Shown in pieces: positions 45,248-64,000 of a stretch of 64,000 nt of DNA (positions are counted from its first letter, which is position 1; each line of letters opens with the position of its first letter). Origin of the DNA: Flavobacteriaceae bacterium. Lineage in GTDB: Bacteria > Bacteroidota > Bacteroidia > Flavobacteriales > Flavobacteriaceae. The notes under the pieces were generated by a model. The model searched no databases. It had not been told where the DNA came from and saw only the letters and a list, made by a program, of their open reading frames with translations. Position numbers and translations under genes: made by a program. Where the stretch lies: assembly GCA_028284745.1 (NCBI GenBank), contig JANQRC010000017.1:124001-188000 (forward strand). Reading direction: 5' to 3'.

Positions 45248-45250
45248 CAT

Positions 45251-46108
45251 ATGAAAGGAATTGTCCTTGCCGGAGGTTCTGGGACAAGGCTTCACCCCTT
45301 GACACTAGCTGTTAGCAAGCAGTTGATGCCCATTTATGACAAACCGATGATCTATTACCCGCTGTCAACACTTATGATGGCCGGGATACGAGAGGTCTTG
45401 ATCATCACCACCCCGCAAGACCAGCCGATCTTTAAAAAGCTATTGGGCGATGGGAGTAAGATAGGGTGCGATTTTCAATATGAAATACAAGAACACCCGA
45501 ACGGTCTTGCCGAAGCGTTCATTATCGGCGAAAAGTTTATCGGCATAGACAAAGTGGCCCTGATCCTAGGAGATAATATTTTCTATGGTTCTGGCTTGGG
45601 AGAGTTGCTGAAGAGCAATAACGACCCCGACGGAGGAACCATATTTGCTTACCATGTTCAAGACCCCGAAAGATACGGGGTTGTTGAGTTTGGCGATGAC
45701 GGCAAGGTGATCTCTATAGAGGAAAAGCCTAGCAACCCCAAGTCTAACTATGCGGTGCCAGGAATATATTTTTACGACAATGACGTGATAGACATTGCTA
45801 AGAATATAAGACCTAGCGACAGAGGCGAATTGGAGATAACTGACGTGAACAAGGCCTATTTAGAGTGCGGAAGCCTCGGCGTGGGCATATTGGACAAGGG
45901 GACCGCCTGGCTAGACACAGGCACGTTCAATTCACTAATGCAAGCATCACAATTCGTGCAAGTGATCGAAGAGCGCCAAGGTTTGAAAATAGGAGCGATC
46001 GAAGAGACGGCATATAAAATGGGGTACATCAATAGCGAGCAGCTGGCAAAGATCGCAACCCCATTGATCAAAAGCGGTTATGGAAAATACTTAATGCAAT
46101 TGATCTAA
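45251..46108 (+). CDS. rfbA: Glucose-1-phosphate thymidylyltransferase
   Basis: The 285-residue nucleotidyltransferase begins with the RmlA signature [17 protein letters not shown], followed by [19 protein letters not shown] and [10 protein letters not shown]. It joins dTTP and glucose 1-phosphate to dTDP-glucose, the first substrate of the rhamnose pathway. It is 3 bases after rfbB and 2 before rfbC. The short 285-residue form is the usual one. Confidence 0.96.
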
Positions 46109-46110
46109 CA

Positions 46111-46662
46111 ATGGAATTGCTTCAGGTCGAAAGAACCGCCCTTTACGGATGCTTGGTCATAACGGCCAAGGTCTTTGAAGACGATAGAGGGTACTTTTAT
46201 GAAACCTTCAACAGAAAGTCTTTTGAAGATCAACTGAACTTGAATGTGGAGTTTGTCCAAGACAACGAATCTCTTTCAACAAAAGGCGTATTGCGGGGGC
46301 TTCACTTTCAGAAAGGAGAACATGCCCAGGCAAAGCTTGTTAGGGTCGTTCATGGAAGTATCGTGGATGCGGTGGTCGATTGCCGAACAGGCTCCCCAAC
46401 TTTTGGGCAGCACCTTACCGTAGAACTTTCTTCTGAAAACAAGAAACAACTCTTCATCCCAAAAGGGTTCGCACATGGCTTTTATACATTGTCCGAGTCG
46501 GCTATTGTGAACTACAAGTGTGATACGTATTACAATGAGCACGCTGAAGGAGGCATTCGTTACGACGACCCTTTTCTAGGAATCGATTGGCAGCTTCAAG
46601 GCAAGCCTATCATTTCTGAGAAAGATGCGGAGCTGCCAAACTTCAAAAAGGTCTTCCCATGA
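46111..46662 (+). CDS. rfbC: dTDP-4-dehydrorhamnose 3,5-epimerase
   Basis: This 183-residue cupin has the RmlC catalytic segment GVLRGLHFQKGEHAQAKLVRV (about 57-77) with the catalytic histidine, and the motifs GSIVDAVVDCR and IPKGFAHGFYTLSE. It inverts two carbons of the 4-keto sugar. Its last 4 bases overlap rfbD (ATGA), which shows translational coupling. Confidence 0.96.
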   Translation: MELLQVERTALYGCLVITAKVFEDDRGYFYETFNRKSFEDQLNLNVEFVQDNESLSTKGVLRGLHFQKGEHAQAKLVRVVHGSIVDAVVDCRTGSPTFGQHLTVELSSENKKQLFIPKGFAHGFYTLSESAIVNYKCDTYYNEHAEGGIRYDDPFLGIDWQLQGKPIISEKDAELPNFKKVFP

Positions 46663-47510
46663 AGAAAGTCTTGGTAACAGGAGCAAACGGACAGTTAGGA
46701 CAAACGATCAAGAAGCTAGCGCGCGCGTTTACTGATGCCGAGCTCATTTGCCTGAGTTCAGAAGAACTGGACATTACCAGCCAAGACGAGGTCGACCGAT
46801 ACTTTTCCAACCATGAATTGACACATTGCATAAACTGTGCTGCCTATACCAATGTAGATAAGGCAGAAGAACACTCTTCAGAAGCCATGAATGTCAACGC
46901 CAATGGAGTATCGAATTTGGCAACTGCATGTAAAGATAACGCCGTTGTACTGATTCACATCTCCACAGATTATGTGTTTGACGGCAAGAAGCGCGCACCC
47001 TATACCGAAGAAGACACCCCCAACCCCCTTAATCTTTATGGCAGATCGAAGCTGGCAGGCGAAGAAACTGTGAGAACGACACTGAAAGAGCACTTCATCA
47101 TTAGAACTTCCTGGCTTTACAGCCAATATGGCAAGAACTTCCTGAAGACCATGTTGCGACTTTCCGAAGAAAAAGAATCGATACAGGTTGTAAACGACCA
47201 AGTTGGCTCACCAACAAGTGCGGCCGATCTTGTAACAGCCCTTTCGATACTTCTGAATGCAGACTCGAAAGACTTTGGCACGTACCATATTTCAAGCAGC
47301 GGAGACACTTCATGGCATGAGTTTGCACAGGAAATTCTCAAGCTGAAGGACAGGCACATGACTGTTATAGGGGTATCTTCGGAGCAATATGCATCGATTG
47401 CAGAGCGGTCCAAATACGCTGTTTTGGATTGTTCAAAGTTTGAAAAAAAATTTAAACACATACTTCCATTTTGGAAAGATGGCCTCAAACGCATCATGAC
47501 CAATCTATAA
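46659..47510 (+). CDS. rfbD: dTDP-4-dehydrorhamnose reductase
   Basis: The 283-residue SDR protein has the N-terminal VLVTGANGQLGQTIK, the HISTDYVFDGKK loop and the YGRSKLAGEE segment with the catalytic YxxxK. It completes dTDP-L-rhamnose. A gap of 96 bases with a -7 box precedes cysQ, so the next group may have its own transcript. Confidence 0.95.
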   Translation: MKKVLVTGANGQLGQTIKKLARAFTDAELICLSSEELDITSQDEVDRYFSNHELTHCINCAAYTNVDKAEEHSSEAMNVNANGVSNLATACKDNAVVLIHISTDYVFDGKKRAPYTEEDTPNPLNLYGRSKLAGEETVRTTLKEHFIIRTSWLYSQYGKNFLKTMLRLSEEKESIQVVNDQVGSPTSAADLVTALSILLNADSKDFGTYHISSSGDTSWHEFAQEILKLKDRHMTVIGVSSEQYASIAERSKYAVLDCSKFEKKFKHILPFWKDGLKRIMTNL

Positions 47511-47606: not shown

Positions 47607-48395
47607 ATGAAAAACAATCTAACAATCGCCGTAGAAGCTGCCATAAGTGCAGGCAAAGCGATTCTAAAAGTGTATGAAGGCGACTTTTCGATAGAGGAAA
47701 AGGAGGACAAAAGTCCATTGACAGATGCCGACAAGGCTTCCAATGAGGTGATCATGCGCTTCTTGTCGGACACAAAAACCCCGGTGATAAGCGAGGAAAA
47801 CAAGCAGATCGACTATCAAGACCGCAAGAATTGGCAAGAATGCTGGATCGTAGACCCACTTGACGGCACCAAGGAGTTCATCAAGAGAAATGGTGAATTC
47901 ACAGTGAATATTGCCCTGGCGCAAAACAATCAACCCCGACTGGGCGTGATCTATGTGCCAGTAACCAGGGAGCTATACTATGGCGATGTTCTCCACAAGG
48001 CAGCTTACAAAGCTTTGGTAGCTGCTAGCGACTCGGCCGAGGAGGTTTTTGAGAAGGCAGAAAAGATAGCTCCCAACAAAACAAGGCACGACACGGTGAA
48101 AGTTGTCGGCAGTCGTTCGCATATGAATCCCGAAACAAAAGCCTTTGTAGAAAACTTGAAGCACGAAGGAAAACTAGTAGAACTGGTTTCGGTAGGAAGC
48201 TCCTTGAAGTTCTGTTGGGTCGCCGAAGGCAAGGCCGACATGTACCCAAGATATGCCCCAACGATGGAATGGGACACTGCTGCGGGTCAGGCGATTTGCG
48301 AAGCAGTTGGGCTTGCCGTGACCTCTAAAGAGACCGACCGACCACTTCTTTACAACAAGAAAGACCTAAGAAATCCAATGTTTCTCTGTAAGTAA
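47607..48395 (+). CDS. cysQ: 3'(2'),5'-bisphosphate nucleotidase
   Basis: The 262-residue member of the inositol-monophosphatase superfamily shows the metal motifs SPLTDADKASNEVI, the signature WIVDPLDGTKEFIKRNGEFTVNIAL (about 87-110) and a C-terminal PTMEWDTAAGQAI. It hydrolyses 3'-phosphoadenosine 5'-phosphate (PAP), the by-product of PAPS-using sulfotransferases or reductases. It opens the PAPS group, whose other members (cysC, cysD, cysN) make the sulfate donor. Confidence 0.94.
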   Translation: MKNNLTIAVEAAISAGKAILKVYEGDFSIEEKEDKSPLTDADKASNEVIMRFLSDTKTPVISEENKQIDYQDRKNWQECWIVDPLDGTKEFIKRNGEFTVNIALAQNNQPRLGVIYVPVTRELYYGDVLHKAAYKALVAASDSAEEVFEKAEKIAPNKTRHDTVKVVGSRSHMNPETKAFVENLKHEGKLVELVSVGSSLKFCWVAEGKADMYPRYAPTMEWDTAAGQAICEAVGLAVTSKETDRPLLYNKKDLRNPMFLCK

Positions 48396-48403
48396 TATAT
48401 ACG

Positions 48404-48643
48404 ATGGATATTTCAAAAAAAAGACACATAGCAAAAACGATAACCTGGAGAGTTATAGCATCATTGACAACATTTCTCTTAGCCCTGATCTTCTTTCGGG
48501 AAGACCCTGAAGCAGCACAAAAAGCAACTTGGGTAGCTATTACAGAAAGTGGCCTGAAAATGATCTTTTATTACCTACACGAGCGCGCGTGGTATAAATC
48601 TAACTTTGGGCTAACATCAAGAAAATCAAAAGAAATAAAGTGA
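48404..48643 (+). CDS. DUF2061 small membrane protein
   Basis: The 79-residue protein has the DUF2061 pattern: SKKRHIAKTITWRVIASLTTFLLALIFF at the N-terminus (one membrane helix) and a second helix around ESGLKMIFYYLHERAW. Genes of this family often lie with cysC/cysD/cysN in marine bacteria, so a role in sulfate activation or in a transport complex is likely, though unproven. Its stop overlaps the cysC start. Confidence 0.85.
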   Translation: MDISKKRHIAKTITWRVIASLTTFLLALIFFREDPEAAQKATWVAITESGLKMIFYYLHERAWYKSNFGLTSRKSKEIK

Positions 48644-49224
48644 GTAATGTCTCCTACCAAAATTTTAAGATAAAACGACCAGACCGCAACCAAAGGAACA
48701 AGCACAACTCTTTTGTGATCTGGTTTACCGGGCTGTCCGGGTCGGGCAAGTCTACACTTGCCAATGCAGTAGAGCGCGCACTTTTTGATAAAGGGGTCTC
48801 GACCTACACTTTAGACGGAGACAATATTAGACTGGGCCTGAACAAAGACCTGGGGTTTTCTGCAGAAGACCGCTCAGAGAACATCAGGCGCATTGCCGAG
48901 GCAGCCAACCTTCTGATAGATGCGGGACTCGTTGTGTGTGCGTCTTTCATATCACCCTACAAAAAAGATAGACTTTATGTAGAAAAGACGGTCAAATCTG
49001 ATAAATTTGTCGAAGTTTATGTAAAAGCGAGTGTAGAGGCGTGTGAAGAGCGTGACGTGAAAGGACTATACAAACGCGCAAGAGAGGGAGAGATCAAAGA
49101 CTTCACAGGCATTTCTGCACCTTATGAGATTCCTGAGAACCCTTCGATCGTTGTAGACACAGAAAAACTCTCGATCAAAGAAGCCACTGCGCTCGTAATT
49201 GATAATGTAGAAAAGATGTTGTGA
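48640..49224 (+). CDS. cysC: Adenylyl-sulfate kinase
   Basis: The 194-residue P-loop kinase has Walker A GLSGSGKST (about 31-39), DGDNIRLGLNKDLGFSAEDRSENIRRI (about 60-86) and the C-terminal FTGISAPYEIPENP. It phosphorylates APS to PAPS. The GTG start at 48640 overlaps the DUF2061 stop. It is a separate protein, not fused to cysN as in some Proteobacteria. Confidence 0.95.
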   Translation: MSNVSYQNFKIKRPDRNQRNKHNSFVIWFTGLSGSGKSTLANAVERALFDKGVSTYTLDGDNIRLGLNKDLGFSAEDRSENIRRIAEAANLLIDAGLVVCASFISPYKKDRLYVEKTVKSDKFVEVYVKASVEACEERDVKGLYKRAREGEIKDFTGISAPYEIPENPSIVVDTEKLSIKEATALVIDNVEKML

Positions 49225-50129
49225 TGAGAAAATACTATTTGAATTACATCGATGAGCTAGAGTCCGAGGCGATATATGTACTTCGCGAAGTATATGCACA
49301 ATTTCAGAACCCAGTGATCCTATTTTCTGGCGGAAAGGATTCCATCGTGCTTACCCACCTTGCTAAAAAAGCATTCTATCCTTGCAAGGTCCCCTTTGCA
49401 TTGATGCATGTAGACACCGGGCATAATTTCCCCGAGACCATTCAATTTAGAGACGATTTGATACAAAGCCTTGGGGCTCGCTTAATTGTCGGGTCTGTTC
49501 AAGAATCGATAGACCAAGGGCGCGTCGCTGAAGAGCGAGGTAAGAACGCAACAAGGAACGCCCTGCAGATCACCACACTTCTAGATGCGATAGAAGAACA
49601 CAATGTAGATTGTGCGATCGGTGGAGGAAGAAGAGATGAAGAAAAAGCGAGGGCCAAGGAACGCTTCTTCTCCCATCGCGATGATTTTGGGCAATGGGAC
49701 CCTAAGAATCAGCGTCCAGAGCTATGGAACCTTTTCAACGGAAAACATTTCGAAGGGGAGCATTTTAGGGTTTTCCCGATCAGCAACTGGACAGAAATGG
49801 ATGTTTGGAATTACATAAAGCGGGAGAACATCCAAATACCATCATTGTACTTTGCCCACTCAAGAAAAGTGATCTGGAGGAATAATTCCTGGATCCCGTA
49901 TTCAGAGCACCTCAAGCTAGACGAAAGAGACGAGATCGTGAGCAAGAAAGTTCGCTTTCGCACACTTGGGGACATTACCATCACTGGGGGCATAGAGTCT
50001 GATGCAGACACCTTAGAGAAGATCGTTCAGGAAGTAGCGGCAATGAGGCAGACCGAAAGAGGCAACAGAGCAGATGACAAGCGCTCAGAAACGGCGATGG
50101 AAGATAGAAAGAGACAAGGATATTTTTAA
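49224..50129 (+). CDS. cysD: Sulfate adenylyltransferase subunit 2
   Basis: The 301-residue ATP-PP-loop protein has the SGGKDSIVL motif (about 35-43), HVDTGHNFPET and the C-terminal GNRADDKRSETAMEDRKRQGYF, which is characteristic of CysD. With CysN it makes APS from sulfate and ATP. The start ATG 49224 overlaps the cysC stop. Unlike in most genomes, cysN does not follow at once; a gene remnant of about 300 bases separates them. Confidence 0.95.
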   Translation: MRKYYLNYIDELESEAIYVLREVYAQFQNPVILFSGGKDSIVLTHLAKKAFYPCKVPFALMHVDTGHNFPETIQFRDDLIQSLGARLIVGSVQESIDQGRVAEERGKNATRNALQITTLLDAIEEHNVDCAIGGGRRDEEKARAKERFFSHRDDFGQWDPKNQRPELWNLFNGKHFEGEHFRVFPISNWTEMDVWNYIKRENIQIPSLYFAHSRKVIWRNNSWIPYSEHLKLDERDEIVSKKVRFRTLGDITITGGIESDADTLEKIVQEVAAMRQTERGNRADDKRSETAMEDRKRQGYF

Positions 50130-50167
50130 AGTATGTAAAGCAGATTGATCGTAAAGCTGTAAAGTCG

Positions 50168-50463
50168 ATGACAGGTTACGAGTTCTATTTTGAAAAGCTA
50201 GACGTTTGGAAGAATACTAGGCAACTAATAATAATTGTCTAAAGAATTTCGAAAAACTTTCCTAATGAAGAAAAATATGGGATCACCTCTCAGATAAGAA
50301 GAGCTGTGGTTAGCATTCATATAGCTCTACATGGGAGGCTATGAGTCTTTTGATTTTGGCATTAGACCTAGGCTATGTCCAAGAAGAGGAATATTCAAGA
50401 GCAAGAAGGCAAATAGGGTTGATTACCAACCAGTTGAATGCATTTCACAAAAAGCTGATCTAA
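50168..50463 (+). pseudogene. Remnant of a four-helix-bundle (23S rRNA IVS-type) protein
   Basis: ATG 50168 opens MTGYEFYFEKLDVWKNTRQL, which fits the start of the small four-helix-bundle family. A TAA interrupts it at 50234-50236; the same frame continues with RISKNFPNEEKYGITSQIRRAVVSIHI and stops near 50341. The end of the family, ALDLGYVQEEEYSRARRQIG and ITNQLNAFHKKLI, is read in another frame and ends at TAA 50461-50463. The middle (around NIAEGTSR...) is missing, so at least one stop and one out-of-frame deletion have killed it. It splits cysD from cysN. Confidence 0.8.
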
Positions 50464-50501
50464 ATCAACTTTACAACTCATCAACTTAACAAAACAAAAA
50501 G

Positions 50502-51758
50502 ATGTCATTAGATAATAGTCAATTATTAAGGTTCACAACGGCAGGAAGCGTTGATGACGGCAAAAGCACATTGATAGGAAGATTGCTATACGATTCAAAG
50601 TCAATTTTTGAAGATCAGTTAGATGCGGTCGAAGCGACCAGCAAACGCAAAGGACACGATGGGGTAGACATGGCGCTGTTTACCGATGGCCTTCGTGACG
50701 AGCGTGAACAAGGCATTACTATAGATGTGGCCTATCGATACTTCACAACGCCCAAGCGAAAGTTCATCATAGCAGACACCCCAGGGCACATCCAGTATAC
50801 CCGGAACATGGTAACAGGAGCGTCAACTGCCAACGCTGCATTGATATTAGTCGATGCACGGCACGGGGTTATCGAGCAGACCAAACGACATTCATTTATC
50901 GCATCGCTGCTTCAGATACCACATGTTATTGTCTGTGTGAACAAAATGGACTTGGTCGACTTTTCAGAAGAAGCGTTCAACAAGATCGTATACCAGTTCG
51001 AGGAGTTCTCCTCAAAGCTATTGGTGAAAGACATTCGGTTCATACCGATAAGCGCATTGTTGGGCGACAATGTCGTAAATCGCTCAGAGAACATGGGTTG
51101 GTATCAAGGTGCACCGCTGTTGCACACCTTGGAAACCCTTCATATCAGCAGCGACATCAACAAGATCGATGCTCGTTTTCCTGTGCAAACGGTGTTGAGG
51201 CCTCAGACCGAAGCCTACCATGACTATAGAGCATACGCAGGCAGAATGGCAAGCGGGGTGCTAAGGCAGGGAGATGACATCACCGTTCTCCCATCTGGCT
51301 TCACCTCTAAGATAAAAGAGATACACGCTTCTGAGACCCGACTTGATGAGGCATATGCGCCCATGTCTATCTCGATCACCCTAGAAGATGACATCGATGT
51401 GAGCCGAGGCGACATGATCGTTAGGTCCAATAACAAGCCCGAAGCAACGCAAGACATCGATGTGATGTTATGCTGGTTGCATGACCAAACCGCTCAACCA
51501 AGAGCAAAGTACATCATTCGCCACACTTCTAATGATCAAAGGGCGATGATCAAAGAGATCGTCTACAAGATCAACATCAACAACCTTGAGCGAGATTCAG
51601 AAGATAAGCACATAAACATGAATGATATTTGTCGAGTGAAGATCAGGACCACAAAACCATTGCTGTTAGATGCTTATCGAGAGAACAGGACCACGGGAAG
51701 CATCATTCTGATCAACGAGGCAACCAACGAGACAGTAGCGGCCGGGATGGTGGTTTAG
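50502..51758 (+). CDS. cysN: Sulfate adenylyltransferase subunit 1
   Basis: The 418-residue GTPase has G1 GSVDDGKSTLIGRL (about 12-25), DTPGHIQYTRNM (about 92-103) and NKMDL (about 147-151), followed by two beta barrels as in EF-Tu-like proteins. GTP hydrolysis drives sulfate activation by CysD. No C-terminal APS-kinase domain is attached, consistent with the separate cysC. It is separated from cysD by the broken gene. Confidence 0.95.
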   Translation: MSLDNSQLLRFTTAGSVDDGKSTLIGRLLYDSKSIFEDQLDAVEATSKRKGHDGVDMALFTDGLRDEREQGITIDVAYRYFTTPKRKFIIADTPGHIQYTRNMVTGASTANAALILVDARHGVIEQTKRHSFIASLLQIPHVIVCVNKMDLVDFSEEAFNKIVYQFEEFSSKLLVKDIRFIPISALLGDNVVNRSENMGWYQGAPLLHTLETLHISSDINKIDARFPVQTVLRPQTEAYHDYRAYAGRMASGVLRQGDDITVLPSGFTSKIKEIHASETRLDEAYAPMSISITLEDDIDVSRGDMIVRSNNKPEATQDIDVMLCWLHDQTAQPRAKYIIRHTSNDQRAMIKEIVYKININNLERDSEDKHINMNDICRVKIRTTKPLLLDAYRENRTTGSIILINEATNETVAAGMVV

Positions 51759-51853
51759 GGGCTTTGTATACAGTAAACACACATACTCAATAATTGTATG
51801 TGAAGTTTAACAAGTGTCACGTAAAAACATATCTTTACGTCTGCATTGTAAAT

Positions 51854-53158
51854 ATGTCGAAAAGCATGCGTGACATCAAGCAATTCATGAAGAGCAACCT
51901 TCATAAGGCCTATTTCGTATTACTCGGGATGGTTGCATTTTTCCCAATCTTTGACAGTGATGGGATTTCTAAATTAGTTGGTGTTTTTCTCGGCGCCTCA
52001 TTCTTGTTATGGATGCTTTTTTCGAGGAAATTAAATAAGAACTTTGGCCACATTTGGTTGATAAATGTGGCATTTTATTTACTACTACTACTCTCTGTTC
52101 TGTATTCTTCCAATTTCAGTAAAGGTATAGACAACGCAGTCAAAGCAATAGGAATCCTTCTGTTTCCTTTAGTGATGTGGGGCTTGATGCCGCAGTTAGA
52201 TACTAAGAAAAAAGATCGGATCTTACTACTATTCTCCTATTTGAACTTTGTTTTAATACTTTATTTCTGCTGGGTTTTTTATGATTACTTTGAATTGAGT
52301 AGCATGCGAAACATCCGAAGGGCTTTTAAAAATCTAGACTTTCGATTTGCGATCAAGTACGGGCTTAATGACTATTTTCACACTACTTACCTCTCAGCAT
52401 CTATACTACTAAGCCTATGTATTCTTCTGAGACATTGGTTCCAAATGAGCAAGAGAGGACTAAGAAAGACAATCTTTATTGTCATTATGATGGTAAGTTT
52501 TGCTGCCTTCATTTTGTTACTGCGAGTTCGCATAGTGTTTTTGGCGTTTTTCTTTATTGTTCCGTTGCAGCTAATATTCTCGATCAGACACCAGAAATAT
52601 CGCAAGATGGTAGGTTTCGGGGTTCTTTCCATATTCATGCTTTTGTTTGTGGGAAGCTTTGCAAATGAGAGAATTAGAAACTATATCTTAACTCCATTAA
52701 TTCAAATGATCAAACCAGAACCCGCCACAAACGGAAAAGCACTACACAAAGAATTCCGAATAGAGATAAATGTGTGCAATTTTGAGGTGATTAAAGCTAA
52801 CTGGCTGATAGGAGCTGGTTGGGGAGATGCCAATGAAGCGCTGATCGAATGTTTTAAGGAAAAGGAACTTTTCAAACTTTCAAGAGGCAGGTACAACTCA
52901 CATAATCAATATGCATATCTTTGGATGTCTTCTGGGGTATTTTGCCTTTTGTTTTTTATAATCATGATGGGCTACAATGCTTGGAGAGCGATACAGTCTG
53001 GAAACATCTTGTACTTAGCCTTTATGCTACTGGTACTCTCGTTGATGCTTACAGAAAATATTTTATATAGGATCTATGGAGTTACTTTTTATGCGTTTTT
53101 CAATGCACTATTGCATTCCTTCACAATTCAAACACTAAATAGAAAAGGTGAGAAATAA
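51854..53158 (+). CDS. O-antigen ligase/polymerase-like membrane protein A
   Basis: The roughly 434-residue protein has about 11 hydrophobic helices. The late segment RYNSHNQYAYLWMSSGVFCLLF (about 363-384) matches the NSHN-x-Y...W...G motif of the WaaL/Wzy O-antigen ligase superfamily. It may link or polymerise glycan repeats in the periplasm. Start ATG 51854 (MSKSMRD) is preferred; the ORF is open to 51794. Its end overlaps the flippase gene by 11 bases. Confidence 0.75.
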   Translation: MSKSMRDIKQFMKSNLHKAYFVLLGMVAFFPIFDSDGISKLVGVFLGASFLLWMLFSRKLNKNFGHIWLINVAFYLLLLLSVLYSSNFSKGIDNAVKAIGILLFPLVMWGLMPQLDTKKKDRILLLFSYLNFVLILYFCWVFYDYFELSSMRNIRRAFKNLDFRFAIKYGLNDYFHTTYLSASILLSLCILLRHWFQMSKRGLRKTIFIVIMMVSFAAFILLLRVRIVFLAFFFIVPLQLIFSIRHQKYRKMVGFGVLSIFMLLFVGSFANERIRNYILTPLIQMIKPEPATNGKALHKEFRIEINVCNFEVIKANWLIGAGWGDANEALIECFKEKELFKLSRGRYNSHNQYAYLWMSSGVFCLLFFIIMMGYNAWRAIQSGNILYLAFMLLVLSLMLTENILYRIYGVTFYAFFNALLHSFTIQTLNRKGEK

Positions 53159-54623
53159 TTTTTACAATCTTTTTGGAGGGGCTGGAAGAATGGCAGTGTC
53201 GTTGGCAACTATACCACTCTTGGTGGGGCTTATGGGCCCAGAAAAATATGGTATATGGATGCTTATTGTTTCTGCAGGAAATACTGCCATGCTATTAGAT
53301 GTCGGCATGTCCGGAACTACGATGCACTTTGTCTCTAGAGCGTTAGCACTACGCAGCAAGGATCATAAAAACTCTGAACTTGAGCAGACGATGCTGCTGC
53401 TGCTGCTGCTTACAGGCATCATCGCATTATCAATAGTATGTCTTTTTGTGGCAATGACAAGTGCTTTAGCTAGCTTTTTCTTTGATAAAGAGCATATGGG
53501 GCTGGATATTTTCATTGCCTTAAAATGGATAGGAGCCTATGTCGCCCTGCTTTTCTCGCACAATTTTTTTGTTGGCGTGATTCAAGGATATGATGATTTC
53601 AAAACGGTGAACATCATAAAGTTCTTCTTTATGCTATTTTCAAATTTGGGCCTCTTGTCTTTAGCGAGTAAGAATGCGCCATTAAGCCAAATGGCTATTT
53701 GGATTTCAATTGTGGCAGGTCTTACCTTGCTTTCATACATCATCAAAACATTTTATGTTCTAAAACCAGAAAACCTGATCAAACCTTCTTTCAACAAGAG
53801 TATTGTTAGAGAAGTGCTGACTTATTGCGGGAATACCTGGCTGGGGTTTTCAGGAAACATTTTGTTCGGGCAAATGGACAAAATTGTGCTCGGCTGGGTT
53901 TGCGACCCGAAGATAGTAGGAATTTATGCTGCAATTGTCGGCATCTCTACCTATATCAACTCCATAGCAACTGTTGGGCTACAACCTCTGATCACCAAGA
54001 TGTCAGAGTTGTCGGCCAAGATGATTGAAAACATGCAAAGCATTCAAAAAAAGTTTGAAGAATCGTTGATGTTCAATGCACTGCTTATTTTCTTTCTTGG
54101 CTTAGCCAGCTTTCCAATTTTAGCGCTGTTGCTAGAAGGGGTTATGAAAATCGATATAGACGACCCGACAAAGCCTCTACTTGCATTTAAACTTGCAATT
54201 GTGATTTATTGTGTGAACTCATTGTATGTGCCAGGATTTTACACCTTAATGGCTTTCAAGGAAACAAAACATTTAGGGATAATACAGTTGCTGGCTGCAC
54301 TGACAAGTCTAGGGCTAATATACTTATTGTCGGCACAATATGGACTGTTGGGGGGCATAATAGCTAATATTGGCTTTATAATTAGTTGGAGTTTGAATTC
54401 CTTGGCGTCTCATAGAATTTATAACAACCCTTTTTGGTGGGTCAAGAAGATAATCCCATTTCTAAGTGTTTTCTTGGTGTTCTCGGTAGTGCAAATGGCT
54501 GCAGATCTGTCATTCTTCTATCACATTCTTCTATCATTTTTTGGGATTTTGGGAACCTTTCTACTTCTAGCGAAAACCTACCCGACCATAGTACAACAGG
54601 CAAAAAACCGATTCAGGCCATGA
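53148..54623 (+). CDS. Polysaccharide flippase (Wzx-type)
   Basis: The 491-residue protein has about 12-14 hydrophobic helices, with the MATE/Wzx-like opening FGGAGRMAVSLATIPLLVGLMGPEKYGIWML and LGWVCDPKIVGIYAAIVGI near 245. Wzx flips lipid-linked repeat units to the periplasmic side. Start is GTG 53148, overlapping the preceding gene. A run of CTG codons (53393-53411) encodes six leucines at about residues 82-87. Its end overlaps the next gene by 4 bases. Confidence 0.85.
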   Translation: MRNNFYNLFGGAGRMAVSLATIPLLVGLMGPEKYGIWMLIVSAGNTAMLLDVGMSGTTMHFVSRALALRSKDHKNSELEQTMLLLLLLTGIIALSIVCLFVAMTSALASFFFDKEHMGLDIFIALKWIGAYVALLFSHNFFVGVIQGYDDFKTVNIIKFFFMLFSNLGLLSLASKNAPLSQMAIWISIVAGLTLLSYIIKTFYVLKPENLIKPSFNKSIVREVLTYCGNTWLGFSGNILFGQMDKIVLGWVCDPKIVGIYAAIVGISTYINSIATVGLQPLITKMSELSAKMIENMQSIQKKFEESLMFNALLIFFLGLASFPILALLLEGVMKIDIDDPTKPLLAFKLAIVIYCVNSLYVPGFYTLMAFKETKHLGIIQLLAALTSLGLIYLLSAQYGLLGGIIANIGFIISWSLNSLASHRIYNNPFWWVKKIIPFLSVFLVFSVVQMAADLSFFYHILLSFFGILGTFLLLAKTYPTIVQQAKNRFRP

Positions 54624-55759
54624 TGTTGAATTGGATATTTAAAACTGGGAAATCACACGCATTTATCTGGATCTTTCTGACAACGTTCATTCTTTATGGC
54701 TTGTCTTCAAGATTTCCGGCGGTTGTCTATCTCATCCCGACTGTGATTCTCTTGCTTTTTATCATATTACATACGAAAACACTCCAAGTCGGATTTGACA
54801 CCTTAACATCCATGCTTCTTATCATGTTACTGGTCTATGTCTTTTTCCTCTTGATTGGAGGCGTCGCTTTTTTTCAATATGAGCATAAGGTCAAACTTGC
54901 GCTTTACTACTTGCTTGATATTATTCCCTTGGCTATTTTATTGCGCCTCATTTACCTCAGATATGGCGAATACTCATTCATCAATGGACTTTACTTATCC
55001 TTTGTGCTCGTTGGCCTGTTGCTCTTTGTCTTACTTTATGTGGGATATTTTCCAAGTAATCGGTATCAGCATGTAGGCAATATACTTGGGGCAACAGCAA
55101 TACTTTCGTTTTCTCTAAGCATCTCTAAGCAGAAACAATCCATTCTTTTTATTATTTTTCTATTCCTTTTGCTCACAACAGGCTCTAGACAAGCATTGGC
55201 AGGGATTCTTTTTGCCGGGTTGGTTTATCTTATCTTGAATGGTTGGAGGTGGTTTTTACTGCTCTTGGCACTATCCATATTGATACTGATCTTCAAGGAT
55301 CAGTTGCTCGAATGGCTGATTGATCTATCAGATAAATATGACCTCAGGACACTTCACCGAACTTTTCATGCCTTCACCGCAAAGGGCGGAGGTTCGAGTG
55401 TTAGTACACGAATGGAAATATATACCAATTTGTTCAACTCGTTGCACTTTTTCCCAGACCCCTCGTTTATAGCAGACATCAAGGCTAGATTCCCTCACAA
55501 CTACTTTCTAGAGTATGCGCTTACCGCTGGAGCAATACTGGGAGTATTTTTTATCATTTTCATCGGATACATTCTGCTTAAGGTGTGTTCAACACTGCGA
55601 AGACAACCAATCCTATATTTCGTCCTCATGTATTTTGTTCCCTTCAACATTAGCTCGGGAATTGCAGCAGCCAAATACTTTTTGATCTTTCTTTTTGTGT
55701 TAATTGCATTCATGGAATTCAGAAGAGTTCCGGCAAAAAGAATTAAAGCTTTGGAATGA
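54620..55759 (+). CDS. O-antigen polymerase-like membrane protein B
   Basis: The 379-residue protein is a chain of about 10-11 hydrophobic helices with TTGSRQALAGILFAGLVYLIL near 188 and a large periplasmic loop (about 225-300, GGGSSVSTRMEIYTNLF and RFPHNYFLEYALTAGAILG). The PHNYFLEYAL..G segment is the WaaL/Wzy signature (H-N-x-x-L-x-x-x-x-x-G). It is probably a Wzy-type polymerase. ATG 54620 is chosen because the upstream reading frame overlaps the flippase. Confidence 0.72.
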   Translation: MMLNWIFKTGKSHAFIWIFLTTFILYGLSSRFPAVVYLIPTVILLLFIILHTKTLQVGFDTLTSMLLIMLLVYVFFLLIGGVAFFQYEHKVKLALYYLLDIIPLAILLRLIYLRYGEYSFINGLYLSFVLVGLLLFVLLYVGYFPSNRYQHVGNILGATAILSFSLSISKQKQSILFIIFLFLLLTTGSRQALAGILFAGLVYLILNGWRWFLLLLALSILILIFKDQLLEWLIDLSDKYDLRTLHRTFHAFTAKGGGSSVSTRMEIYTNLFNSLHFFPDPSFIADIKARFPHNYFLEYALTAGAILGVFFIIFIGYILLKVCSTLRRQPILYFVLMYFVPFNISSGIAAAKYFLIFLFVLIAFMEFRRVPAKRIKALE

Positions 55760-56937
55760 TGAGGCCGAAAACCTTGGGACCAAATATCTCAAACTTGCTT
55801 TTGTCCTGGGGGCTTGTCTTGTTCTTTTCGTATGACTTTATGGCGAAAATCATGTCACTTCATGAAATTTCCCATGTCCCTTATCAATGGGCCACAGGAG
55901 TGAAATACTGTTGGTTGGCATTGATGCTCTCTTTTCGGAAAAACAGGTCGATTGAGAATAAAATCATTTGGATTCCCATAGCCATTGGCCTCTGTGTGAC
56001 AATTGGTATGTGGAGCTTACACAAGATACTTACACCTGATGATTTCCTTTTCAATGGCTATTACTACCTGGCCCATTCGTTCCCAATGTTACTATTGGCA
56101 TTTTTCGCATATTTTGAAAATGATCAAGTCATAAACAGGTTCATTAAAGTTTTCAAAATATTCCTGGCCCTGAACTCAGTGCTCATCCTGCTAAACCTGA
56201 TGACAGATTTTGCCTGGGCACTCACGTATTTTAAAGGGTCAAGATTTGGGCACCAAGGGGTTCTGTTGTACCATGCAGAGTCGGCATATATTTATTTTCT
56301 TGGAGTTGCCCTATTCCTTTTCGAATTTCGGAGAAACCAGAGCAAGGTTAACCTCCTTTTATTGATATTGAATATAGCGGCAGCGCTTCTATTAGGAACC
56401 AAGAAGAGCTACATGCTTATTGGGCTATTAACTCTTTATGTTTTGTACCAATACAGGAGAAGTGTTACCATGTACATTATCTCAGCGGTAACTGCAGTTA
56501 TGGTTTTTGTATCTAGAGAGGTTATTGATCGATTATTGTCTGAACAGTTTAAAGTGTTATACAGAGTCTATGAAAACGACGGTCTTCTTTCAATGCTGTT
56601 ATCCTATCGCAATGAACTTTTCTTAAACAACACATTACCATTTATTAGATCTGAATGGAAAATTCTCAATGTTCTATTTGGGGGTCCCAAACTTCACGAA
56701 TACAGAAGCGAGATGGAATTGGTAGACCTATTCCTCTTTGTTGGTATTGCAGGAATTCTACTTTACGCAATCTGGTTTTATTGGCTAAATAAACTGCTTG
56801 TTAAAACAGTGTACGGCAAGTATTTATTGCTTTGCCTTATAGCAACGGCATTATTATCTGGAAACCTCTTGGCAAGCATAAATACCAGCATCATTTTTTT
56901 CTTCGTTCAGAAACGGCTAAATAAAGAGGCTCTTTAA
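55756..56937 (+). CDS. O-antigen polymerase-like membrane protein C
   Basis: The 393-residue protein has about 10 hydrophobic helices and a periplasmic loop at about 255-330 (LLSEQFKVLYRVYENDGLLSML and SYRNELFLNNTLPFI, which resembles the R-x-x-L loop of Wzy proteins). GTKKSYMLIGLL near 214 resembles the G-T/S-R/K-x motif of polymerases and the WaaL family. No clear H-N-x-x-L motif is seen. It overlaps protein B by 4 bases. Whether it is the polymerase, a ligase or an acyltransferase cannot be decided. Confidence 0.6.
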   Translation: MMRPKTLGPNISNLLLSWGLVLFFSYDFMAKIMSLHEISHVPYQWATGVKYCWLALMLSFRKNRSIENKIIWIPIAIGLCVTIGMWSLHKILTPDDFLFNGYYYLAHSFPMLLLAFFAYFENDQVINRFIKVFKIFLALNSVLILLNLMTDFAWALTYFKGSRFGHQGVLLYHAESAYIYFLGVALFLFEFRRNQSKVNLLLLILNIAAALLLGTKKSYMLIGLLTLYVLYQYRRSVTMYIISAVTAVMVFVSREVIDRLLSEQFKVLYRVYENDGLLSMLLSYRNELFLNNTLPFIRSEWKILNVLFGGPKLHEYRSEMELVDLFLFVGIAGILLYAIWFYWLNKLLVKTVYGKYLLLCLIATALLSGNLLASINTSIIFFFVQKRLNKEAL

Positions 56938-57759: not shown

Positions 57760-60513
57760 ATGCTAAGTATGCATTTTATTTATTTATTATCTAGCACCCT
57801 ACTTTTTATGTTGGGAAAAACCAGTCAGGGAATTGTTATTCGCTCGGTTGAAAATACGAACACCAGGCATGCAATAGCGGTCAGTGAAAACCAAGACAAA
57901 ATATTTTGGAACAAAACAGCATCAGACACCCTGAAGCTAAACATAGATCCCATCTCGTACAAAGACCTTATTAATTATAGCCAAGACACATTCGAATTTT
58001 TTATAAGCAGTGAAAAACAAGCGGCAGGCACTATAGAGATCGTATTTGTAGATCAGGATGGGCATAGTGTATTGTCGAGCAATATTTCGACCAATTATGT
58101 GGGCTTAAGGAGATTTACCATTAGTTGCCGATATGACATGCAACGTTATGATAGCACGGGAGATGTAAAAGGCATTTATTTTGTAGCAAAAGGGCAAGAT
58201 TCCAAGCTCACCCTCCATCTTCCGTTGAACCATGCGGCTCGACGCAACAAACGGATCAAGAATATATATTTAAAAGAAGTGAAGGGTTTTTTCAGTGATA
58301 CCACATATAATCATTTCTATGGCATACCCCCCCCAAGCGCATATGATACCTTGAATGCAAAGACAGTATCAAGACTGAAGCTTGCTAAAGAGTCGTATCA
58401 AGATTTCCTATTAAAATATAAGGCTGGCCAAAATTGCCAAGGAGAATATTTGTACGAAAAAGAAATGAAAGAATTAGACAGCAATAAAGTTCGCCTTAAG
58501 CGGCAGTTGCGGTCACAACGGTTGATAAATATTACACCGGAGAGTGCAGGAGTCGCACTCCTATCAGTGGTCAAGCATTTGGTGCAAAACAATACCTCGA
58601 AAGATATAAAACTAGTCAATGAAGTAGTTGGACAAGTGTATCAAAAGGGGTTTGCTGAAAACTCTGAAATTACGTACAACCAATACTTCCTTAGAGAATA
58701 TTTTCAAGCGCTGTTGCTATCATATCCATATCTATCAGAGGAAAACAAATTAAGGGTCGACAATACACTTGTCTGGTATTTGAAGGTGAATAAGATTTTT
58801 GACCCAACGTACAAACCCGAACCCTACTTTTCTGACTTAGTGCGTAACCAGTACATTTTTATAATGGGATGGATATTTAACTTGGCACCACAAAAGAGAG
58901 CCCAATACTTGGAGGCTTTAAGGAGACACCTAGACAGGGTTTTTGCTAACTCGAGCATAAAATCGGGATGGATAAAGCCCGACGGCACTTCTTTTCATCA
59001 CAATAGTCAATATATCGCGTATATGTACTCTTTCAATGAAATGATAGACCTCATAGGCTTTCTTGAAGAAAGTGGCTTTCCGCTGGAAGATAAAAGCGCA
59101 GAAACCTTTAGAGATGCAGTATCAGCTATTTTAATTGTTTCAAATAAGGGCAGGTATACAAACAATTTAGGAGGCAGACATCCTTTCAGAACAGAAAACC
59201 CGATTTGTCAAAAAGGCTTGGTAAAATTATCAAAAATATTAGCGAAGCGACAGTTAAAATCCAATCTAGATGTTGAAGACTTATTTTACAACAGATATTC
59301 TAGCATCCAAGGATTTTGGCAATTTAATTATGGAAATATGGGAGTATACCGAACCGATGGATACGTAATGGTAGCAAAGGGGTTCTCTAAGAATTTTTGG
59401 GGTTCTGAGATCTATGCTCGAGAGAATAGATTTGGCAAGTATCAAGGATATGGGACTCTCGAGATCATTGATTCGACAGGGTTTCATGCCAGTGGATTTG
59501 AAGAGCATGGATGGAATTGGAATCGTCCCCCGGGGAGCACAACCATTAACCTCCCAGATAACAAGCTTAATCCACCAAAAGCTCGGGTAGATGAATACAC
59601 TAACACAAATTTTTCAGGATCACTTAGCATAGGTCGAATTGAAGATGGCACTCAGTTAAATAGAGGAAGAGGGGGTGTTTTTGCGATGAACTTCATTGAG
59701 CAAAAGAACTCTCCAAATCACGACGAGTCATTTGGTTTTCGTAAAAGCTACCATTTCTACAAAGGCAAAGCGCTTTGCTTGGGTTCTGGCATCAGCAAAG
59801 AAAGGTCACCATATGAAGTCACCACCAATATTGTTCAAGTAAAAAGCAACAAAGAAGAAAGCACTAGCCTCGAGGGTAATAATTTTAGGTTTGTAATAAA
59901 CGAGAAAGAAATACTTAAAGAAGACTTACCTTTTGTTTTTGCCAGAGGGGCACTGTACTATTGTGTATATGATGCTACGAACGTTCAAGTAAATCGAAAA
60001 GTTCAAAGGAATCGTAATAGCACTGACACCAGAGAGTATTCGGGTCGTTTTACGAATGTTTTTATTAATCACGGCACTGCGCCTGAGAACGAAACTTATG
60101 AGTATTTGATTTCAACGAAACAATGTGATATAAATCAAAAGCCATATGTTGTAAAGCAACAGGATGACCTCGCTCATGTTGTTATGTTTGAGGACGGTCG
60201 CGAGGATTATGTGATTTATAAGCCAAAAAGATCTGCTGGCGAAATGACCCTTTTAGAATCAACGATAGGCATCTTGTCGCTGAAAGAAACGAATGATACG
60301 CTAACCATTAACTTTACGAACCCAGGCTTAGAGTTTGATGATAAGGGAGTGGCCATAGGACAATCACATGAAGTCAAAATTAAAGGGGCTTATCAATTGA
60401 TAAGAGCCACACAGCCAGTAGTCATAGAGCCTGACTCCATGTCAACCAAAATTCTGTTTGAAGCTGGTCACGGAAAAATGTTGGAAATACAGTTGAGAAG
60501 GCATAAAAAATAG
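57760..60513 (+). CDS. Polysaccharide lyase family 8, chondroitin-ABC-type
   Basis: The 917-residue protein has a signal peptide (about 1-25), an N-terminal jelly-roll domain (to about 200), an alpha/alpha toroid and C-terminal beta domains. His414, Tyr421 and Arg473 (in GGRHPF) repeat exactly the 7- and 52-residue spacing of His501, Tyr508 and Arg560 of Proteus vulgaris chondroitinase ABC, and Glu568 is near the place of its Glu653. It should cleave uronic-acid glycans by beta elimination in the periplasm or outside. A run of eight C at 58327-58334 lies in the coding sequence. Confidence 0.82.
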   Translation: MLSMHFIYLLSSTLLFMLGKTSQGIVIRSVENTNTRHAIAVSENQDKIFWNKTASDTLKLNIDPISYKDLINYSQDTFEFFISSEKQAAGTIEIVFVDQDGHSVLSSNISTNYVGLRRFTISCRYDMQRYDSTGDVKGIYFVAKGQDSKLTLHLPLNHAARRNKRIKNIYLKEVKGFFSDTTYNHFYGIPPPSAYDTLNAKTVSRLKLAKESYQDFLLKYKAGQNCQGEYLYEKEMKELDSNKVRLKRQLRSQRLINITPESAGVALLSVVKHLVQNNTSKDIKLVNEVVGQVYQKGFAENSEITYNQYFLREYFQALLLSYPYLSEENKLRVDNTLVWYLKVNKIFDPTYKPEPYFSDLVRNQYIFIMGWIFNLAPQKRAQYLEALRRHLDRVFANSSIKSGWIKPDGTSFHHNSQYIAYMYSFNEMIDLIGFLEESGFPLEDKSAETFRDAVSAILIVSNKGRYTNNLGGRHPFRTENPICQKGLVKLSKILAKRQLKSNLDVEDLFYNRYSSIQGFWQFNYGNMGVYRTDGYVMVAKGFSKNFWGSEIYARENRFGKYQGYGTLEIIDSTGFHASGFEEHGWNWNRPPGSTTINLPDNKLNPPKARVDEYTNTNFSGSLSIGRIEDGTQLNRGRGGVFAMNFIEQKNSPNHDESFGFRKSYHFYKGKALCLGSGISKERSPYEVTTNIVQVKSNKEESTSLEGNNFRFVINEKEILKEDLPFVFARGALYYCVYDATNVQVNRKVQRNRNSTDTREYSGRFTNVFINHGTAPENETYEYLISTKQCDINQKPYVVKQQDDLAHVVMFEDGREDYVIYKPKRSAGEMTLLESTIGILSLKETNDTLTINFTNPGLEFDDKGVAIGQSHEVKIKGAYQLIRATQPVVIEPDSMSTKILFEAGHGKMLEIQLRRHKK

Positions 60514-60570: not shown

Positions 60571-61779
60571 ATGCACATACTTTATATCCATCAGTACTTC
60601 AAAAAGCCAATCGAAGCTGGCGGCACTCGCTCGCACTGGATCGCGCAACAGTTCCTAAAGGAGGGCCATAAAGTTACCATGCTGACATCAAAGAATAATA
60701 TGCAGCAATCCATGGCGAAGGAAAATTTTGAAGGAGTCGACCTGATATATTTGAATACACCATACGATAACAAGATGAGTATCCTAAAAAGGGCAAAGGC
60801 TTTTTTTAGCTTCATGATCAGAGCGACAAGCAGAAGTTTCAAGATCAAGGATGTTGACTTGGTCTATGCCACATCTACCCCGCTAACTATTGGAATCCCT
60901 GCGCTATTCTTAAAAAGATTTAAAAAGACGCCTTTCATTTTTGAAGTTCGTGATCTGTGGCCTGAAGTTCCAATTCAGATGGGAGGATTAAAAAACCCAA
61001 TACTCAAGAAGGTAGCAATCCTTCTAGAGAAAAGGATCTACAAGAAGGCAATTCATATCATAGCATTGTCGCCAGGTATGGAGGCAGGAGTGAAACGCTT
61101 TCAATTCGCTGAACCTAAAGTGAGCATGGTTCCTAACATGGCCAAGATCGATAAGTTTTACAAGCGCACACCCTCGCAAGAAGATATTTCGTTTGCAAAA
61201 TCTGTAGGGCTTCAGACAGATAAATTCAATATTGTTCATTTCGGTGCCATGGGCCTAGCCAATGGTCTTGAGTATGTGATTGAAGCTGCCAAGGTCGCCC
61301 AAGACCGAAAACTCGATGATTTTCATTTTGTGTTTTTGGGAGAAGGGAGTACCATGCCTGCACTTAAGGAAATGGTTGAAAAGCATACATTAAAGAATGT
61401 GTCCTTCCTTGGGAAATTTTCTATGAGAGAGACCTCATTGCTGGTGAATCTTTGTGCAGTTTCTGTAGTGTCTTTCAAAAACCTACCCATTTTAAGGACC
61501 AATTCCCCCAACAAGTTGTTCGACTCCCTGGCTGCGGGGATACCAATCATAGTAAACTCAAGTGGATGGACAAAAGACCTTGTCGAGCAGTACGAATGTG
61601 GCCTTTATGCCAGCCCGGAACAGCCAAAGGAACTAGTCGACCAATTGAAGAGACTCTATCAAGACCCCTCTCTTAGAGAAAAGTATAGCATTAATGGACG
61701 CAAACTGGCAGAAACGGTTTATGACAAATCTATACTAACACCGAAGATTGCTAATATTGTGGCGTCAATAGAAAAATAG
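60571..61779 (+). CDS. GT4 family glycosyltransferase (WbuB-like)
   Basis: The 402-residue protein has the N-terminal [21 protein letters not shown] and RDLWPEVP typical of WbuB-like GT4 enzymes, and the C-terminal donor-binding region [16 protein letters not shown] and [17 protein letters not shown] (about 313-329). It adds a sugar to a lipid-linked acceptor in the cytoplasm. It is the only clear glycosyltransferase of the locus inside the window. The donor (for example a HexNAc or rhamnose) is not known. Confidence 0.88.
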
Positions 61780-61781
61780 CC

Positions 61782-62387
61782 ATGTCATACAGAAACTTCA
61801 AACGTATTGCAGATTTTGGATTTTCGTTACTCGCATTGATCTTATTATCTCCTATTATTTTGTTGGTGATATTGTGTCTTTCTATAGTAAATCAAGGAAC
61901 GCCATTTTTTTTACAAGATAGGCCAGGTAAAGACGAAAAGATCTTCAAGGTGATAAAATTCAAGACAATGAATGACAAGAAAGACCCTGAAGGCAACCTT
62001 CTTTCTGACGAACAAAGAATGACGCGAGTTGGTAAAACCATAAGAAAGACATCAGTTGATGAGATCCCACAGCTTATTAACGTTGTCTTAGGTCAAATGA
62101 GTTTTGTGGGGCCAAGACCTTTGCTTCCAGAATACCTAGACCTTTACAGCGACGAACAGAAACTACGCCACCAAGTGAGACCCGGAATAACGGGTTGGGC
62201 GCAGGTAAACGGCCGCAATGCTATTAGCTGGACCAAGAAACTTGAATTGGATGTTTGGTATGTAAAAAATAAAAGTTTTGGTCTAGACCTAAGAATTCTA
62301 TTCAAAACAGTCATCAAGATCATTCAAGCTTCAGACATAAATACAGAAGGCATGGCAACCACTGAACGATTCACAGGATTTAATTGA
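61782..62387 (+). CDS. Phosphoglycosyl transferase of the PglC type
   Basis: The 201-residue protein has one hydrophobic re-entrant helix (about 14-36) and the bacterial sugar-transferase signature: [48 protein letters not shown] and [16 protein letters not shown]. As in PglC, the D-E pair in VDEIPQ is the active site. It moves a phospho-sugar to undecaprenyl phosphate, starting the repeat unit. It lies 2 bases after the GT4 gene. Confidence 0.9.
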
Positions 62388-62402: not shown

Positions 62403-63032
62403 ATGGATACTAAAGAAATCTATTTATATGGGGCAAGTGGCCATGCCAAGGTAGTCATAGATATTTTGGAATCTATGGGCAGACATGCCATTAAAGGCAT
62501 ATACGATGATTACAGTAATAAGGAAAAACTGTTGGGAGTTCCCGTTCTAAGAGACAAGTCGAGTATCAAAGCAAAAGACACCTTGGTCATAAGTATTGGC
62601 AATAATCTCCATAGAAAGGATGTGGTTGATATGCTTTCTTGCCAATACGATACTTTAGTGCATAAAGAGGCATACGTGTCTAACCTGGTCTTCAGCATCG
62701 ATGAAGGCACAGTTGTCATGGCTAAGGGCATTGTGAATCCAAATGTAAAAATCGGGAAACATTGTATAATAAACACCGGGAGCATCGTAGAGCATGATTG
62801 CGTACTAGAAAATTTTGTGCACATAAGCCCCAATGCCACGATACTAGGGGGGGCATTCATTGGTAGTGGAACTCAAATAGGAGCAGGAGCTACCGTATTG
62901 CCCAATGTAAAAATAGGAAAATGGGCTACCATTGGGGCAGGCAGTGTGATCCATCGTGATGTTCCAGATTACGCTGTTGTGGTCGGAGTTCCAGGTAAAA
63001 TAATAAAAACTAATCATGAGCGAAAAGTCTAA
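62403..63032 (+). CDS. Sugar O/N-acyltransferase of the NeuD/PglD type
   Basis: The 209-residue protein has a Rossmann-like N-terminus (YLYGASGHAKVVIDIL) and a left-handed beta helix with hexapeptide repeats (GKHCIINTGSIVEHDCVLENFVHIS, GSGTQIGAGATVLPNVKIGKWATIGAGSV). The H-D-C pair around residue 125 fits the catalytic histidine of PglD. It should acetylate the 4-amino sugar made by the following aminotransferase. A run of seven G (62847-62853) lies in the coding sequence. Confidence 0.88.
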   Translation: MDTKEIYLYGASGHAKVVIDILESMGRHAIKGIYDDYSNKEKLLGVPVLRDKSSIKAKDTLVISIGNNLHRKDVVDMLSCQYDTLVHKEAYVSNLVFSIDEGTVVMAKGIVNPNVKIGKHCIINTGSIVEHDCVLENFVHISPNATILGGAFIGSGTQIGAGATVLPNVKIGKWATIGAGSVIHRDVPDYAVVVGVPGKIIKTNHERKV

Positions 63033-64000
63033 GATCTGGCTCTCTTCCCCTCATATGGGAGGAGAAGAGATGTTTTTTGTAGAAGAAGCATTTAGAACCA
63101 ATTGGATCGCTCCTTTAGGTCCAAATGTTGAAGGATTTGAGGAAGATTTGAAGTCTTTTTTGAAACAAGATATTCAAATTGCGGCGTTAAGTTCTGGCAC
63201 TGCCGCACTGCATCTTGCATTAGTGCTTTTAGGAGTAGGAAGAGGAGACGAGGTAATCTGTCAAAGTATGACTTTTTCAGCCTCAGCCAATCCTATTGTA
63301 TACCAAGGGGCTACCCCAGTATTCGTTGATAGCGAACCCGAAACGTGGAATATTTGCCCTGATAGCCTAGAGAATGCGATAAAAGATCGATTGAGCAAGG
63401 GCAAACGCATCAAAGCAATAATCGCTGTCAATCTGTATGGGATGCCATATAAGGCCGATGCTATTAGACAAATTGCCGATCAGTATGAAATACCAATTGT
63501 TGAAGATGCCGCAGAATCACTTGGGAGCAAATACAAAGGACAAAGAGCCGGCACTTTTGGAGATCTAGGGATATTGTCATTCAATGGTAATAAGATCATT
63601 ACCACATCGGGTGGAGGAGCATTGATTTGCCCTTCTAAAGCCAAAAAGAAGAAAGCGATTTTTCTAGCCACTCAAGCTCGTGATGATGCCCCTCATTACC
63701 AACATAGCCATATAGGATATAACTACCGGATGAGTAACGTCACGGCAGGTATTGGACGAGGTCAGATGAAGGTGTTGGAGGGACATATTGACAAGCGTCG
63801 CAAAATGAATCAATTCTACAGAAACCAGTTCAGTACTATTGATGGGGTGTCTGTTTTTGAGGAACCCACCCAGGATTATTTTTCTAATCACTGGCTTTCT
63901 TGCATACAGCTAGAGCAGACCGCTCTTCCGATGGGTCGAGAAGAAGTGAGACAAATTTTTCTACGAGAAAATATTGAGACCAGACCTCTTTGGAAGCCAA
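63016..64000 (+). CDS. DegT/DnrJ/EryC1 (PglE-like) sugar aminotransferase, 3' end outside window
   Basis: About 328 residues are present. The start MSEKSKIWLSSPHMGGEEM overlaps the acyltransferase gene by 17 bases. The PLP enzyme signature includes NWIAPLGPNVEGFE, ALSSGTAALHLAL, EDAAESLGSKYKGQRAGTFGD, SFNGNKIITTSGGG with the Schiff-base lysine, and HSHIGYNYRMSNV. Such enzymes put the 4-amino group on UDP-4-keto-6-deoxy-GlcNAc in the bacillosamine pathway. The expected dehydratase PglF would be to the right of the window. Confidence 0.88.
   Translation, partial: MSEKSKIWLSSPHMGGEEMFFVEEAFRTNWIAPLGPNVEGFEEDLKSFLKQDIQIAALSSGTAALHLALVLLGVGRGDEVICQSMTFSASANPIVYQGATPVFVDSEPETWNICPDSLENAIKDRLSKGKRIKAIIAVNLYGMPYKADAIRQIADQYEIPIVEDAAESLGSKYKGQRAGTFGDLGILSFNGNKIITTSGGGALICPSKAKKKKAIFLATQARDDAPHYQHSHIGYNYRMSNVTAGIGRGQMKVLEGHIDKRRKMNQFYRNQFSTIDGVSVFEEPTQDYFSNHWLSCIQLEQTALPMGREEVRQIFLRENIETRPLWKP

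Follow-up and report, generated by a model that had tools for sequence, protein, structure and literature searches.

The synthesis loci of alginate and the sphingans are known to encode polysaccharide lyases, whose role there is still debated. The gene for AlgL of Pseudomonas lies inside the locus for a uronic-acid polymer, and the product is a lyase, free in the periplasm, that lowers the yield of alginate by its activity and, when overproduced, disturbs chain length (PMC5099689). The gene for the Sphingomonas welan lyase, WelR, likewise belongs to the cluster that directs synthesis of the enzyme's substrate, and WelR lowers the viscosity of welan; its host is an Alphaproteobacterium, and the enzyme has been modelled on a PL6 alginate lyase rather than on PL8 (PMC7899989). 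The best comparisons among PL8 enzymes are chondroitin ABC lyase I of Proteus vulgaris (1hn0/7eip) and the chondroitinase of Bacteroides thetaiotaomicron (2q1f), which belong to degradation loci.

We have analyzed a stretch of 64,000 nucleotides from a Flavobacteriaceae genome, called the window below, in which a PL8 lyase gene is instead found among polysaccharide synthesis genes. Such a location for a lyase gene has precedents, but the alginate pathway is synthase-dependent, whereas the locus described here is of the Wzx/Wzy type. Furthermore, a PL8 enzyme in this position is new among the loci and the open-access literature that were searched, the latter yielding no report of a PL8 lyase in a synthesis locus.

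The lyase and its predicted fold

The lyase gene (57760..60513, + strand) is an uninterrupted reading frame of 917 codons, and Pfam matches, a structure match and the catalytic tetrad assign its 917-aa product to the PL8 polysaccharide lyases of the chondroitinase-ABC (ChABC) type. The Pfam set is the one found in chondroitin ABC lyase I and 2q1f: Lyase_8 scores 78.1 bits (cut-off 27), Lyase_catalyt (PF09093) 74.1 bits (cut-off 25.1) and Lyase_N (PF09092) 24.2 bits, slightly under its cut-off of 26, and the N-terminal domain is covered by the structural alignment to ChABC. The closest solved structure by sequence is chondroitin ABC lyase I (E 1e-39), with the B. thetaiotaomicron chondroitinase also among the closest and chondroitinase AC reaching only 1e-5.

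The original prediction matched the spacing of His414, Tyr421 and Arg473 to that in chondroitinase ABC and deduced that the enzyme is probably active. In a sequence alignment to chondroitin ABC lyase I, on which the numbering was counted and the residues then checked, these three align with His501, Tyr508 and Arg560, and Glu550, which had not been mentioned, aligns with Glu653 and completes the tetrad; the alignment with PL8 structures, which had been proposed as a check, therefore places the expected residues at the catalytic positions. The complete tetrad is present in 93 of 94 aligned PL8 sequences. A PL8 homologue at L098:4015-7116 (- strand) carries Asn, Phe, Lys and Glu at the four catalytic positions, three of them being replacements, and, judging from these residues, is likely not a standard lyase.

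An AlphaFold model of the window lyase, built with 37 relatives, has a mean pLDDT of 79 and predicts the alpha/alpha toroid and beta-sandwich that define PL8. Over residues 21-916 the model superimposes on the full-length chondroitinases with Z scores of 40.7 (2q1f) and 40.5 (1hn0), at about 20% identity in the structural alignment. The predicted layout comprises an N-terminal beta domain (residues ~23-160), the toroid (~200-515) and the beta-sandwich domains (518-917). Because the tetrad is complete and the predicted fold matches, the enzyme is probably catalytically active, as had been proposed.

The protein is likely exported. Residues 1-22 form a putative signal sequence, with a hydrophobic N-terminus that is missing the usual positive charge. 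The T9SS sorting tail that is present in 14 of 38 aligned sequences is absent from the window lyase, and a Pfam search detected no attachment modules on it. The G+C content of the gene is 39.0%, compared with 43.7% for the window; a foreign origin inferred from base composition was considered and set aside, since values just as low (36.5-39.5%) are found in the adjoining Wzy and sugar-transferase genes and the lyase is not singled out.

The surrounding synthesis locus

The locus is of the Wzx/Wzy surface-polysaccharide type and extends from 40.9 kb in the window to 6 kb beyond its end. It begins with a Wzz-like chain-length determinant (40879..41955, +), assigned from a weak Pfam match and a position that is kept in relatives, followed by a TviB-like nucleotide-sugar dehydrogenase for UDP-HexNAc uronate (41965..43227, +), a TviC-like UDP-HexNAc-uronate epimerase (43231..44235, +), RmlB, RmlA, RmlC and RmlD for dTDP-L-rhamnose synthesis (44192..47510, +), and CysQ, CysC, CysD and CysN for sulfate activation to PAPS (47607..51758, +). 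Next come a Wzy-type membrane protein, the Wzx flippase, a second Wzy-type protein and P0002, a membrane protein without a Pfam family (together 51794..56937, +). Downstream of the lyase are a GT4-type glycosyltransferase (60571..61779, +), an initiating sugar-phosphate transferase (Bac_transf; 61782..62387, +), a PglD/NeuD-type sugar acetyltransferase (62403..63032, +) and a PglE-like, DegT-type sugar aminotransferase (63016..63999, +) that runs on beyond the window, where a PglF-like dehydratase, a TuaD-like UDP-glucose dehydrogenase (Ugd), a WcaJ-like transferase, a GT2 and then purD are found (L010). The single Wzx is thus accompanied by three membrane proteins of Wzy- or ligase-like type, and the whole locus has two initiating transferases; possibly it makes two polymers.

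Given this gene content, the polymer precursors probably include rhamnose and a diamino sugar as well as uronic acids, which we infer to be suited to attack by a beta-eliminating lyase. As with AlgL, the lyase gene thus lies inside a synthesis locus for a uronic-acid polymer, to the extent that the precursor genes point to uronic acid. Sulfation of the polymer is only a possibility, suggested by the presence of CysQ/C/D/N; no sulfotransferase to pair with these enzymes was found in the locus. The single genome-wide match to Sulfotransfer_3, at a sub-threshold 15 bits, adjoins a ribosomal-protein-S1-like frame elsewhere and is unlikely to be a polysaccharide sulfotransferase. The O-polysaccharide locus of Flavobacterium psychrophilum resembles this one in its Wzx/Wzy, rhamnose and PglE/PglF/PglD-type genes, but the parts of the published description consulted mention no lyase, uronate or sulfate-activation genes (PMC6519341).

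The earlier description of the lyase as embedded with synthesis genes needs one amendment: these genes do surround it, but they do not form one unbroken operon. A gene for a LamG/concanavalin-like lectin lipoprotein (P0003; 56944..57690, - strand), divergent from the lyase, parts it from the upstream synthesis genes, and the lyase therefore heads a second gene run that continues with GT4, the sugar transferase, PglD, PglE, PglF, Ugd, WcaJ and GT2. The gap between lyase and GT4 is 57 bases, with no terminator-like site on the + strand; promoter-like sites are no more frequent than in shuffled sequence. The lipoprotein has two strong full-length homologues (L181 and L182) among 289 family genomes. 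Both are in synthesis loci, one of them (G197, L181) at a comparable position, and the lipoprotein may therefore accompany such loci regularly. The G197 locus also encodes, between TviB and Wzx, an exported protein of 432 aa that could be assigned to no family (L181:2547-3845).

As had been noted, SusC and SusD are missing from the surroundings of the lyase. Searches with the genome's own SusC/D and sulfatases as markers found none of these in the window or in its flanks (20 kb upstream and ~39 kb downstream), and the lyase is thus not part of a polysaccharide utilisation locus, as defined by an adjacent SusC/SusD pair. The 2.8 Mb genome, which is 97.8% complete, encodes four SusD proteins and several sulfatases, all on other contigs, and the window lyase is its sole PL8. 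No GH88 or GH105 enzyme, of the kind that processes lyase products, was found in this genome, which argues against a complete pathway of glycosaminoglycan degradation.

Related loci and recurrent lyases

The site is conserved in the Flavobacteriaceae, with the order DUF6909-Wzz-RmlBACD-(often CysQ/C/D/N)-variable part-WcaJ-purD in most of the ~20 relatives examined; CysQ/C/D/N are kept at the equivalent site in G008, G024, G028 and G029. None of these ~20 relatives has a PL8 gene at that site. A search for the same gene order in related genomes, which had been proposed as a check, found it with a PL8 in none of them, and neither that order nor a closer homologue turned up in overlapping draws of 149 relatives and of 397 family, 395 phylum and 395 order genomes. 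A collection of named genomes gave no match when scanned with the window lyase alone and 49 distant loci when scanned with an alignment, and plasmids and phages gave only matches below 28% identity to the window lyase. The nearest PL8 sequences are 24-35% identical, and in a tree of PL8 sequences the window lyase is a lone long branch among those of Bacteroidota. The general expectation that PL8 enzymes of Bacteroidota occur mostly in utilisation loci was upheld: among 67 distinct other PL8 loci, SusC/D accompany the lyase in 35, a sulfatase only in 13 and neither in 19, and not one of the 67 contains the three or more synthesis genes taken to mark a synthesis locus.

Exported lyases of an unrelated family do occur in equivalent loci. 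Screening of relatives' synthesis loci for exported proteins revealed, in the genome with the most similar PurD (G028; 76%), a secreted 297-aa polysaccharide lyase of PF14099 (77.7 bits; L111:10000-10893, -), its gene tightly flanked by those for an asparagine synthase and a Wzy-like protein. When PF14099 was then searched for in 296 relatives, matches were found in 31 genomes, and of 20 further places examined with their flanks, three lie in synthesis loci. In G177 (L215:9606-10418, -) and G073 (L216:9477-10337, +) the exported lyase is inside rhamnose/TviB synthesis loci, that of G177 also containing a sulfotransferase and an MBOAT acyltransferase, while in G185 (L227:9570-11069, -) a weaker match, to a larger exported protein, is found beside TviB and Ugd. 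By a rough random-placement estimate that assumes synthesis loci to make up 1.5% of the genome, about 0.3 of the 20 would be expected in such loci against the three observed (p ~0.003), or two of 20 (p ~0.04) if the weak G185 match is omitted. The most economical account of these data is that loci of this kind acquire an exported lyase again and again, with a ChABC-type PL8 filling the slot in the window. A broader proposal, put forward only tentatively, is that the surface-polysaccharide loci of Flavobacteriaceae have a recurring slot for a dedicated exported lyase, filled by unrelated families in different species, and that the PL8 would here be matched to a self-made, glycosaminoglycan-like, possibly sulfated uronic-acid polymer.

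Possible roles of the lyase

The reading toward which we lean, by analogy with WelR and with AlgL, which itself belongs to a lyase family other than PL8, is that the enzyme is self-directed, its target being the uronic-acid polymer of the cell itself, which it would trim, clear or release. A PL8 lyase would have been recruited into the cell's own surface-polysaccharide pathway; once exported to the periplasm or the cell surface, it would cleave the product of the surrounding genes through beta-elimination, with Tyr and His as base and acid and Arg and Glu as helpers. Such cleavage might clear stray polymer, limit chain length or release chains. The complete tetrad and predicted fold, the uronate precursor enzymes (TviB/TviC-like and Ugd) in the locus, the position at the head of a tightly spaced run of synthesis genes, and the hydrophobic N-terminus without a T9SS tail all speak for this role, as do the distance from any SusC/D or sulfatase, the lack of GH88/GH105, the single PL8 in the genome and the independent recurrence of exported PF14099 lyases in equivalent loci (G028, G073 and G177, with G185 weak). 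Against it are the absence of an orthologue at the same site in the other genomes searched, the ready turnover of genes in the variable part of such loci, the divergent lipoprotein gene upstream, the atypical charge of the presumed signal sequence, and the fact that PL8 specificity is not readable from sequence.

The strongest competing explanation, in our judgment an unlikely one, is that a catabolic lyase that scavenges a foreign glycosaminoglycan-like polymer landed by chance in the variable part and has no role in synthesis. Most relatives with informative neighbors do sit in utilisation clusters, the site is a hot spot of gene exchange, and SusD and sulfatase genes exist elsewhere in the genome. 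However, a scavenging enzyme is hard to reconcile with the lack of nearby SusC/D or sulfatase genes and of GH88/GH105, with the close spacing to the synthesis genes that follow, and with the recurrence of unrelated lyases in equivalent loci; the long divergent branch also argues that the enzyme is not a recent copy of a utilisation enzyme. It is more doubtful still that the lyase is released or displayed for use on neighbors, hosts or algae, perhaps to break through a foreign matrix, and is simply co-expressed with the coat of the cell itself. External acidic polymers are the typical substrates of PL8 enzymes, and export is likely, but secretion tail, attachment modules and associated uptake genes are all missing.

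Two further explanations call on the divergence of the sequence. Lyases and epimerases have proton-abstraction chemistry in common, and the very long lone branch suggests changed constraints, so that a PL8 scaffold might no longer cut chains but instead act on the nascent polymer as a modifying enzyme such as a uronyl C5-epimerase; this is quite improbable, given that the whole lyase tetrad is retained and that we know of no PL8 epimerase. A decaying or inactive remnant, which a lone and fast-evolving sequence might suggest, is very improbable for a gene with an intact 917-codon frame and every invariant catalytic residue in place.

The original proposal of a self-directed lyase is thus plausible and has been strengthened, and the case provides a caution that not every PL8 enzyme is a chondroitin degrader. 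This PL8 lyase in a synthesis locus is genetically defined and open to testing, and the organism may possibly be a bacterial source of both a glycosaminoglycan-like polymer and the enzyme that cuts it. Together with the unrelated lyases in equivalent loci, it would suggest that the making of Wzx/Wzy polymers by Bacteroidota generally calls for a self-cutting enzyme.
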